A DNA stretch of 20,253 bases. Origin: a virus. Shown here piece after piece: positions 218 through 13,003 of the stretch (the first letter of the stretch is position 1; every line of letters starts with the position of its first letter). The translations under genes were made by a program, and so were the position numbers. Below the pieces are notes generated by a model that did not search any database, had not been told where the DNA came from, and saw nothing but the letters and a program-made list of their open reading frames with translations. The stretch lies in IMG/VR virus record IMGVR_UViG_3300005563_000117, positions 1 through 20,253 of that record; one strand, written 5' to 3'.

Positions 218-419
218 TTCGGCGTAGTCCTGAGCATGACTTGAAACTGCTCAACCTAACCTATGTTGACGCCTGCCGTAAGTAATAAGCATACATCAAT
301 GACGTGTTAACTGCGTTATTGAGCGCAATGTGTGTGTTGCACTCGCATTCCATTCACCCACTGTTCTCACACGATTGTCCGAGCTAAGAGTCCGGACCAA
401 AGGGACAAGATGAGGCAGA
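218..419 (+). other. Intergenic spacer with two hairpins
   Basis: No gene is seen here. Two hairpins can be read. TGAGCA (231-236) pairs with TGCTCA (248-253) around an 11-nt loop that begins TGAC. GTCCG pairs with CGGAC around 377-398. No convincing sigma-70 promoter or T-tract terminator is present, so the role is open. Confidence 0.4.
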
Positions 420-596
420 GTGAGTTTGACAGAGACATCGCTTACGGTAGGCGTGAACATAGGAGGCTCCAATGAAGTAGATAAGCTGACAGAACTACCT
501 CACGACTTCATCAGACCGTTACCCATCGCAAGCATGTTGGTTACATGCCGCTCGGCCCCATCTCTCGCGGAGAGAATAGCGTCACGGGGTCATTAA
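420..596 (+). CDS. Possible small protein, GTG start
   Basis: An open frame of 58 codons from a GTG, with the central sequence LTELPHDFIRPLPIAS, which has the look of real protein rather than shadow frame. The Shine-Dalgarno is only moderate (GAGG about 6 bases upstream). An alternative GTG start lies at 452. An AGGAGG at 462-467 sits inside the frame, in front of a two-codon ATG-AAG-stop. The frame ends just before the next gene's ribosome site. No domain is recognised; a chance ORF is possible. Confidence 0.45.
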   Translation: MSLTETSLTVGVNIGGSNEVDKLTELPHDFIRPLPIASMLVTCRSAPSLAERIASRGH

Positions 597-10893: not shown

Positions 10894-11066
10894 TGTTTCA
10901 TTAGTAACTTTTCTGGCCGCATCAAGCGATGCTGGCTGGATGCCCTAACGGTTGAACAAAATCTTGAACGTCGTCTTAGGGATGCGTAAGGAAAAGAGCC
11001 GTATAACCTTACGTTCTAGTTTTTCGTCAGTGGTGTAAGAAACATCGAAGAACCTGTACGACGCAG

Positions 11067-11089
11067 TTGGCATAGACGTAGCTCTGCAA
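11067..11089 (+). repeat. Variant hairpin V1, 12-nt loop
   Basis: GGCA-type stem: T-T-(G bulge)-G-C-A pairs with T-G-C-A-A around the loop TAGACGTAGCTC (11073-11084). It keeps the A-T closing pair, the GAC and the 3' GCTC of the decaloop family but has two extra bases. Confidence 0.55.
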
Positions 11090-11468
11090 GACAACGTTCG
11101 GGTGTGGACCGGATTGATCGTACTGTTCTGGAGCATGCTCAGCATGCCTAGCCGATAGCCCCACTTCGGTGGTGCCGTGGTTAACACGGGTAGTGAAGGC
11201 GGGAGGTGCCGTGTGATGAACGGTGTGACGAAAGAGAGAGACCTCTGAGTCCAAATCATTGAGGTCACCTACAGTATGTAGCGAGACAGAATCTGGACAT
11301 ACTGTGAGCCGGGAGTAGGTCAAGCCCTGCAATCCCATCTCCGGGGGCACTAAGCGGAGAAACCAAGGTGTATATCGTTTCCCCTACCGTGACGCGGTTA
11401 ACAGTCAGCAATACTCGGAGTCCTACCTTAGAGTGGGTAACCGTGAGCAAAGGCGGAGACCAACACCA

Positions 11469-11486
11469 ACCATGACACGCTCTGGT
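11469..11486 (+). repeat. Decaloop hairpin 1
   Basis: ACCA pairs with TGGT around the loop TGACACGCTC (11473-11482). Shortest stem of the set, four pairs. Confidence 0.7.
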
Positions 11487-11622
11487 AGACAGCAAGAGAA
11501 GGAGAAGCGGCCACCCCTTTGTCGGGTATAGCCCGTCCTGAAGGAAGCTAGCTTCGATGTTATCTGCACAGGTGAATTCGTGACGAAGTGTACGCCAGAA
11601 CTATAGCGGAATAAGGCTTATG

Positions 11623-11642
11623 GCCTATGACTTGCTCTAGGT
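11623..11642 (+). repeat. Decaloop hairpin 2
   Basis: GCCTA pairs with TAGGT (one G-T wobble) around the loop TGACTTGCTC (11628-11637). The segment CTATGAC within it is also complementary to GTCATAG at 11744-11750, which would compete with this hairpin. Confidence 0.75.
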
Positions 11643-11697
11643 ACGGTCCCCGTGATGATTAGTGTTTACGGCGAGTGCAGCTGCCCCGTGCATGGTA

Positions 11698-11750
11698 AAA
11701 GGTCAGCCAAAGACCAGCAGTAGTACGCAGGTTCAAATCTGCCGTCATAG
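11698..11750 (+). other. Degenerate tRNA-like segment
   Basis: GGTC-AGCCAAA-GACC (11701-11715) looks like an anticodon arm with a CCA (Trp) triplet, but position 33 is G, not T. GCAG-GTTCAAAT-CTGC (11727-11742) looks like a T arm that has lost one C, so the stem has four pairs and the loop eight bases. GTCATAG (11744-11750) would be the acceptor 3' strand; its partner CTATGAC lies 113 bases upstream. No proper D arm is found. A tRNA relic or a tRNA-like domain of the large RNA, not a working tRNA. Confidence 0.4.
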
Positions 11751-11866
11751 ATGAAACTCAGATAATGGAACCCAACCGATGGCGCTAAACCATCAAAGAA
11801 CCCTCCAACCCTTAAGCGTAAGCATGGCTCTGAACCATGCCCATGCACTGTATGGACGCATCAGGA

Positions 11867-11893
11867 CCTCAGCATGACCCGCTCTGTGGGAGG
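11867..11893 (+). repeat. Decaloop hairpin 3
   Basis: CA pairs with TG next to the loop TGACCCGCTC (11875-11884); then an internal loop; then CCTC pairs with GAGG. Least regular stem of the set. Confidence 0.6.
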
Positions 11894-11902
11894 AAACCGT
11901 GG

Positions 11903-11925
11903 CAGCTAGGACTCGCTCTAGACTG
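11903..11925 (+). repeat. Decaloop hairpin 4
   Basis: CAGCTA pairs with TAG-A-CTG (one bulged A) around the loop GGACTCGCTC (11909-11918). The first loop base is G instead of T. It lies only 34 bases after hairpin 3, measured loop to loop. Confidence 0.7.
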
Positions 11926-12138
11926 TTGTCATATACCGTCTGTCTGGAAGGATAATACCCTGTAGCCTACAATCACCAACGGGTGGTGAACTCGTGTCTT
12001 GCGACTGTGGTGAGACCAATACAGGAAGAACTGGACCGTCCGGGTGTCTAACATCTGGTCACTCTGGTTAACGGCGTGCAGCTGTCAACTGCATAGCCCA
12101 GATACTGCGTACATTCGCAGGGAATTAAGTGGTGACGT

Positions 12139-12160
12139 AACTCATGACTCGCTCTGAGTT
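12139..12160 (+). repeat. Decaloop hairpin 5
   Basis: AACTCA pairs perfectly with TGAGTT around the loop TGACTCGCTC (12145-12154). Confidence 0.8.
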
Positions 12161-12275
12161 CAGATGCACCCATTAACCGACTACTCTGCAGGTAGGGCGA
12201 TGGCCCACACGATGGTGTAGTAGACCTCAGTCCGAGTATGCTCTGGTGAACTGGTCCTTACATGACCATGATGTT

Positions 12276-12298
12276 TGGTATAGACGTGTGCTCTACCA
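12276..12298 (+). repeat. Variant hairpin V2, 13-nt loop
   Basis: TGGTA pairs perfectly with TACCA around the loop TAGACGTGTGCTC (12281-12293). It starts TAGACGT like V1 and ends GCTC like the whole family, with the same A-T closing pair. Confidence 0.6.
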
Positions 12299-12381
12299 TA
12301 TCTGACCGCAGAAGGAATGAGGCGGTCCGGCAGAGAGTTCCGTAGACAACAGGGACCGTCCTGACTACGGCAAGTCTAAAG

Positions 12382-12403
12382 GCTGTATGACACGCTCTAC
12401 AGC
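12382..12403 (+). repeat. Decaloop hairpin 6
   Basis: GCTGTA pairs perfectly with TACAGC around the loop TGACACGCTC (12388-12397). Confidence 0.8.
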
Positions 12404-12536
12404 AGCAACCCTATTCACGCAGCCGATTACTGCGACTGGCCTAAACGGAGAAGTCAAGTATGTACTGAATGACTGGTTCCCTTCATCAACGTGGAGATGG
12501 AAAATGACCATCAATCAGAAATACCTCACCGCAAAT

Positions 12537-12600
12537 GTCGTCCCACGTAGCTTACTAGTAAGCGAACGACAACTTGGACAGCCCCCTTAATAAGAAGGGG
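12537..12600 (+). other. Palindrome and C/G hairpin near the RNA 3' part
   Basis: CTTACTAGTAAG is a perfect 12-base palindrome, bracketed by GTCGT and ACGAC. It is followed by CCCCTT (12583-12588) pairing with AAGGGG (12595-12600) around AATAAG. There is no T tract, so these are structural elements rather than an intrinsic terminator. Confidence 0.5.
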
Positions 12601-12608
12601 TAAGGTGA

Positions 12609-12632
12609 GGGGGTATGACGCGCTCTACCCCC
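12609..12632 (+). repeat. Decaloop hairpin 7
   Basis: GGGGGTA pairs perfectly with TACCCCC (seven pairs) around the loop TGACGCGCTC (12616-12625). It ends 27 bases before the next gene's ATG, just upstream of that gene's GGAGG. Confidence 0.85.
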
Positions 12633-12658
12633 GCCCCAACCCCCATACGGAGGTTAAC

Positions 12659-13003
12659 ATGAAACATGATCCTTATATCGGCATTGTATCGTTGCTGGAA
12701 TACATGGACCGAAAGACAGGACGTCCAGCTAAGACAGCGAACAAGATGTTCAAAGGAGCTAAGAAGATTAACTTCGAAATCAGTGAGCTTCCAGAGATAG
12801 TACGTCGTCGTAAGGAAGAACTAGACGGTCTGGAGAAGTTCCTGAAAGAATTCAACAAGAAAGAAGAGAAGAAGCCTGACAAGGGGATTAAGTTCTCCGG
12901 ACTAGAATGGTTCATCATCGGCATCATCTCTTACCCAATCGTCGGTCCGCTCTACAACGTTATCCGTCACAATCTTGAAACAATGGGAACGGTGATCAAA
13001 TGA
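12659..13003 (+). CDS. Coiled-coil membrane protein
   Basis: 114 residues from the ATG after CGGAGGTTAAC; an upstream in-frame start (12605) would run through hairpin 7 and is rejected. Residues 38-70 form a charged coiled coil (ISELPEIVRRRKEELDGLEK ...), then a Lys-rich linker, then one membrane segment at about 82-102 (LEWFIIGIISYPIVGPLYNVI). The topology suggests a C-terminally anchored cytoplasmic coil. It is the first gene after the noncoding region. Its stop overlaps the next ATG (ATGA). A role in lysis or in anchoring replication to the membrane can only be guessed. Confidence 0.75.
   Translation: MKHDPYIGIVSLLEYMDRKTGRPAKTANKMFKGAKKINFEISELPEIVRRRKEELDGLEKFLKEFNKKEEKKPDKGIKFSGLEWFIIGIISYPIVGPLYNVIRHNLETMGTVIK

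Follow-up and report, generated by a model that had tools for sequence, protein, structure and literature searches.

What are hairpins that share one loop and differ in their stems doing in a non-coding stretch of a phage genome? The question is raised by IMG/VR record IMGVR_UViG_3300005563_000117, positions 1 to 20,253 of which form the window analysed here (20,253 nucleotides). A first-pass annotation of the window had listed seven hairpins with loops of the type TGACNYGCTC and had taken them as a mark of selection on RNA. All seven were found on the + strand, with loops starting at 11473, 11628, 11875, 11909 (G first), 12145, 12388 and 12616, each on a contiguous stem (4, 5, 3, 3, 6, 6 and 7 bp, respectively) with A-T as the closing pair. 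The pattern [TG]GACNNGCTC accounts for these seven in the non-coding interval 10894-12658, where 2000 shuffles give 0.06 occurrences on average and never more than 2, and it has no occurrence on either strand in the remainder of the window. When the right arms were exchanged between these hairpins, the observed pairing total was reached in 0.016% of 100,000 trials. The claim of seven paired stems stands for the set as a whole, which also covaries (see below), but hairpins 3 and 4 are weak when the window is taken alone (each has 3 contiguous bp, with outer pairs that are interrupted). The count of seven was too low. An eighth copy had been missed, and there is a possible, weak ninth (Table 1).

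The clue to the nature of these hairpins comes from related phages. A DNA polymerase search of IMG/VR yielded 80 relatives, and six hairpins from one of them, L003, were combined with the seven of the window. In this set all five of the five stem pairs have changes on both sides, 87.7% of stem cells are paired (58.5% after shuffling), and the covariation score is 0.818 versus 0.276 (sd 0.060) for shuffled data, a value reached in 0 of 500 shuffles. The signal is lost when the partner column is slid by 1-3 columns. The L003 counterpart of hairpin 3 has a perfect 5-bp stem (CTGCG/CGCAG), and one L003 copy, TGACATTCTC, deviates from the module consensus. Selection at the RNA level, as the first-pass annotation had argued from constant loops on compensating stems, is thus supported by the homologs: against the refuting condition that the annotation had set, their copies keep complementary stems and the region is non-coding.

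The 10-nt loop itself proved invariant in the window's seven hairpins but not in the relatives, where the cap between the strands NGAY and GCTC is 2, 3, 4, 21 or 23 nt long and the strands stay constant. L063 has the copies ACCA-AGAC[GTAT]GCTC-TGGT and CTCA-AGAT[GT]GCTC-TGAG. L067 has ACCA-AGAC[TTAA]GCTC-TGGT, GCCG-TGAC[TTAA]GCTC-CGGT and ACGCA-AGAT[AT]GCTC-TGCGT, the last being the counterpart of the L063 copy with the CTCA/TGAG stem. Further copies among the relatives have long caps, namely ACGCA-TGAC[21 nt]GCTC-TGCGT and GGGGCCA-TGAC[23 nt]GCTC-TGGCCCC, and in the L063 and L067 copies of hairpin 7 a 23-nt inner hairpin is inserted between the two strands. Because the strands are constant and the tips variable, the module is, judged by sequence, a two-strand internal-loop element (A-N-G-A-Y / G-C-U-C-U) that either caps a helix or sits within one. 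No named RNA module with such a consensus is known to us. The helix tip at the possible ninth copy is shorter in relatives, which suggests that helix tips acquire and lose copies. GCTCTG is the top enriched hexamer when four RNAs are pooled, and the NGAY/GCTC module is confined to the window's clade.

Table 1. Features of the module-bearing interval and its borders (window positions unless a relative is named; bracketed letters are caps).
Feature	Position	Strand	Remarks
Upstream gene, 163 aa	10402..10893	+	"ssb-like" by position only; profile matches in 61/61 relatives
Non-coding interval holding the predicted RNA	10894..12658	+	No ORF above shuffled expectation; homologous in L003, L063, L067, partly L006; covarying helices
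Possible ninth module copy, weak	11070..11087	+	GCA-TAGAC[GTA]GCTC-TGC; 3 bp only; helix tip shorter in relatives
Covarying hairpin, constant GTCCAAA loop	11238..11268	+	11 pairs, both-side changes in 6
Module hairpin 1	11469..11486	+	ACCA-TGAC[AC]GCTC-TGGT; at equivalent position in L003, L063, L067 with caps TA, GTAT, TTAA
Module hairpin 2	11623..11642	+	GCCTA-TGAC[TT]GCTC-TAGGT; L067 copy has G-C closing pair (GCCG/CGGT)
tRNA T-arm-like hairpin	11727..11742	+	GCAG-GTTCAAAT-CTGC, 8-nt loop variant
Module hairpin 3	11867..11893	+	CCTC-AG-CA TGAC[CC]GCTC TG-TGG-GAGG; stem interrupted
Module hairpin 4	11903..11925	+	CAGCTA-GGAC[TC]GCTC-TAG-A-CTG; 3 contiguous bp, weakest copy
Long covarying hairpin, CTA loop	12033..12065	+	12 pairs, both-side changes in 6, inconsistent 0
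Module hairpin 5	12139..12160	+	AACTCA-TGAC[TC]GCTC-TGAGTT; L003 has no copy at aligned position
Module hairpin 8	12276..12298	+	TGGTA-TAGAC[GTGT]GCTC-TACCA; absent from first-pass annotation
Module hairpin 6	12382..12403	+	GCTGTA-TGAC[AC]GCTC-TACAGC; L003 copy GGTA/TACC
Covarying hairpin, near-constant loop C[AC]GATTA	12418..12434	+	5 pairs, both-side changes in 4
CAACT.GGACARCCYCCTTAA element	12573-12601		L003 about 11540-11568; in L012, L014, L015 near interval 3' end
Module hairpin 7	12609..12632	+	GGGGGTA-TGAC[GC]GCTC-TACCCCC; immediately 5' of next gene's ribosome-binding site
Downstream protein, 114 aa	12659..13003	+	K/E-rich charged stalk and single C-terminal hydrophobic segment; candidate partner
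T-arm-like hairpins in relatives, examples	L012 at 5825, 5900, 6008		Also L013, L015, L037, L045, L062

The interval that holds the modules is 1.77 kb long in the window and is enclosed by the replication gene block. Its conserved structured part runs from about 11015 to 12640 (~1.6 kb), these being the ends of the predicted structure rather than mapped transcript ends. The interval has no excess of promoter-like or terminator-like signals. Another, shorter stretch without a listed ORF lies near the left end of the window (218-544). Across the clade the gene order is pol, the ssb-like gene, the interval, a small membrane-type protein and a Cas4-like exonuclease, with profiles detecting the ssb-like gene in 61 of 61 relatives, the membrane protein in 54 and the exonuclease in 55. 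The slot between the ssb-like and membrane-protein genes is occupied by at least 1.18 kb of mostly non-coding DNA in every measurable relative (54/54, window counted in; 1.18-3.7 kb, median 1.84 kb). The longest internal ORF does not exceed the shuffled maximum in 46 of these 54 intervals, the window's among them; it does in the other 8, which belong to the longer ones and may contain an extra gene. The 114-aa protein is always encoded directly 3' of the interval (in the window and 53 relatives). Its relatives were found with a profile over syntenic ORFs, a single-query search having been unsuccessful. It has no Pfam match above cut-off and no PHROGs match, and the 163-aa ssb-like product likewise matches nothing in Pfam or PHROGs. 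The nearest cultured relatives in the collection are the Roseobacter phages CRP-4, CRP-5, CRP-9 and CRP-13 (CRP-4 and CRP-5 are classified in the Zobellviridae); in these the gene after pol abuts other genes, with no comparable gap.

A conserved element, CAACT.GGACARCCYCCTTAA, is found 5' of the ribosome-binding site of the next gene and is anti-Shine-Dalgarno-like (16S rRNA 3' end). The sequence TTGGACAACCTCCTTA presumably resembles the 16S 3' end. Reading it as a 16S mimic was rejected: CCCCCTTA stands in the window, along with a compensated hairpin, and there is no SSU match in Rfam.

How much of the interval is structured? L003, L063 and L067 have a homologous non-coding stretch of 1.7-1.9 kb, and L006 is similar mainly in parts of its 3' half. 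An alignment of four sequences folds into ~50 predicted helices, many with compensatory changes, at an energy of -548 versus -341 to -383 in six column shuffles; this clade-1 structure is built on only four near-complete sequences, of which L063 and L067 have segments in common. In this fold GUCCAAA, GGUGA, CUA, UUCAAAU and CAGAUUA form constant or near-constant loops above compensating helices. The interval thus shows what marks large ornate phage RNAs as a kind, extensive covarying secondary structure over several hundred nucleotides of a phage genome. The idea that the hairpins belong to one large RNA, also put forward in the first-pass annotation, gains from the conserved, covarying interval in the relatives but lacks a long-range closing helix, since none of the convincing helices extends beyond 300 nt. 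The L063 and L067 RNAs have near-identical segments alternating with quite different ones, as if swapped by recombination. Located 5' of the RNA in L003 (9490-9600) and L063 (9370-9480) is an element like a tRNA-like domain, with matching 7-nt ends and a T-arm and with no anticodon arm seen.

In a second clade (L011-L015, with L007) the same slot is occupied by a conserved RNA of that clade's own, and 111 of its 283 predicted pairs are compensatory. Iterated profiles over the syntenic regions join the two clades collinearly, including window positions 11810-11851 and 12578-12675, although these E-values come from a small syntenic set that had been through iteration, and for 12578-12675 the first round over the whole set gave only E = 0.073. 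The RNAs of the two clades are likely homologous. L050, L053 and L064 each have one 90-nt block similar to positions 346-438 of the clade-1 profile (best E 2e-20, iterated, syntenic set).

Another kind of repeated hairpin is found in both the window and its relatives. Hairpins resembling a tRNA T-arm (a G-TTCRANN loop on at least 4 bp) number 87 in 161 kb downstream of pol versus 23 in 587 kb elsewhere in the same contigs, and most syntenic regions have one to four of them, with differing stems. A stricter count leaves 49 distinct stems with 9 G-U and 2 A-C departures, an excess that fits RNA from the + strand. The family thus habitually combines a constant loop with changing stems: T-arms in most members, with NGAY/GCUC modules added in the window's clade. 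Does the interval then encode a tRNA cluster? This was ruled out with ARAGORN, which identified no tRNA in the window or in the clade-1 intervals, where there is no complete cloverleaf, and only isolated tRNAs elsewhere in the relatives.

Attempts to extend the family outside these relatives gave nothing further. The window RNA and two relatives' RNAs had no blastn match among 50,697 phage records. A scan for the 16-mer ACCAAGGTGTATATCG returned four contigs of the known clade and 15 others without support from the RNA profile, one for the 14-mer CTCAGATAATGGAA gave no supported new member among the matches listed, and the two matches to a 21-mer in bacterial genomes were likewise without support from the RNA profile. 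Additional pattern scans found no new clade-1 member, and a literature search found no earlier description of this RNA.

The obvious candidates for comparison are the giant RNAs that have been described. GOLLD RNA is very large and structured, occurs in phages and prophages and forms a 14-copy RNA cage, and ROOL (rumen-originating, ornate, large) RNA forms an eight-copy cage held together through loop contacts (PMC12286853). OLE RNA is large and ornate and works at the membrane with the membrane protein OapA (PMC12265935). The RNA here is like GOLLD in being a very large structured phage RNA, but it measures ~1.6 kb against somewhat over 800 nt, is placed in a replication gene block rather than a tRNA island and has NGAY/GCUC modules. 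ROOL is likewise a large phage RNA; the present one is more than twice as long, has different gene neighbours and is not near tRNA islands (the window has no tRNA). The likeness to OLE is the small membrane-type protein encoded beside the RNA in 54 regions, the RNA-protein partnership being only a candidate one. However, OLE is bacterial and the RNA here is of phage origin, and in the protein, for which Pfam and PHROGs give no assignment, a single hydrophobic segment is predicted. Because the GOLLD, ROOL and OLE covariance models match neither the window nor the relatives, membership is not claimed. Rfam 15 gave no match to the window at gathering threshold and only chance matches to the interval at a relaxed threshold (none of GOLLD, ROOL and OLE at E <= 5). 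The RNAs of 16 relatives, five searched at the relaxed and eleven at the gathering threshold, gave no match either.

Two smaller RNAs offer partial parallels. CsrB and RsmZ also have repeated hairpins with a constant loop and variable stems, and, like them, the RNA here may act as a sponge that takes up one protein in several copies. However, its loops are GAY/GCUC without the GGA core (GGA is present in one of eight module copies, hairpin 4), and the RNA bearing the modules greatly exceeds them in size and is conserved from end to end. The T-arm of tRNA provides the G-TTCRANN-C loop on short stems that is repeated in most relatives, whereas a complete tRNA is absent from the interval.

What if one long transcript of the interval is cut into a number of small, separate structured RNAs, with the modules marking the pieces, for instance as sites for a processing enzyme? 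The lack of a convincing long-range closing helix would be explained, as would the mosaic of blocks (L006 alike mainly in 3'-half parts, near-identical segments in L063 and L067) and the resemblance of the T-arm-like hairpins to parts of tRNAs. However, the order of blocks is collinear across two deep clades, no complete tRNA is present, and the modules occur in several unrelated helices at short spacing. We therefore consider this scenario rather unlikely, though it deserves to be kept in mind. That the interval is a very long leader, controlling translation of the membrane protein through hairpin 7 and the CCYCCTTAA element near the ribosome-binding site, is improbable. It is true that only ~15 nt separate the end of hairpin 7 from that site, that several relatives have a CCTCCTT-like element near the 3' end that could pair with the GGAGG site, and that the membrane-protein gene follows the interval in 54 regions. 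Nevertheless, the majority of the covarying helices lie over 500 nt away from the gene, and a conserved structure of at least 1.2 kb far exceeds the leaders known to us.

Perhaps the repeats act as DNA instead, as cruciforms at a replication origin or as sites for a DNA-binding protein. The location within the replication gene block and the nearly equal predicted fold energies of the + and - strands would agree with this. Against it, G-U departures outnumber A-C ones (9 versus 2 in T-arm stems, 20 versus 13 in clade-1 helices, modest numbers that make the latter a weak strand test), and tRNA-type T-loops and long multi-helix folds are features of RNA, which makes a DNA role very unlikely. It is harder still to believe that the interval encodes a diverged member of GOLLD, ROOL, OLE or another known family, overlooked by the models. 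The kind is similar (very large, ornate, phage-borne) and covariance models can miss remote members, but neither the relaxed searches (interval and five relatives) nor those of eleven more relatives at gathering threshold turned up a match.

The best reading of the sequences is an uncatalogued family of giant ornate phage RNAs, similar in kind to GOLLD, ROOL and OLE without being a member of any of them. Within it, the hairpins are probably modules repeated at the periphery of a very large, structured non-coding RNA of a clade of uncultured soil phages, serving multivalent docking. The + strand of the interval would be transcribed and work as RNA, presumably as one molecule rather than several. 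The module would cap or interrupt different RNA arms, leaving the stem sequence free to change. Docking is plausible and is favoured because up to eight unrelated stems bear the element, both of its strands are kept, its caps vary and its positions differ between relatives, a pattern more readily expected of a recognition element than of a structural linker with a fixed position. What would dock there? The modules could be multivalent sites for several copies of one protein or, alternatively, could engage matching receptors on the same RNA or on its other copies; no receptor motif with a similar copy number was found. Either way, docking would hold together a large RNA or RNP assembly. Since the module is present only in the window's clade, docking would not be the core function of the whole family. 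The adjacent small membrane protein is a possible partner or membrane anchor, but it may be a neighbour unrelated to the RNA.

Giant ornate RNAs are known in small number only, and for GOLLD, ROOL and OLE the 2025 structures revealed RNA cages and a membrane-linked particle that have no clear function. The family described here would add an RNA about twice the size of GOLLD, in a fixed replication-block slot in every measurable relative and with a candidate membrane partner. It also illustrates clearly how one short RNA module can be set on many stems that are unrelated, so that its docking partner can be tested directly. A more tentative idea is that a new class of giant phage RNA (~1.2 to >1.8 kb) extends clade-wide through uncultured soil phages distantly related to the Zobellviridae, that portable loop modules (T-arm mimics and NGAY/GCUC elements) on freely changing stems make up this RNA, and that it might work together with a dedicated small membrane protein as a membrane-anchored RNP or an RNA cage during infection.
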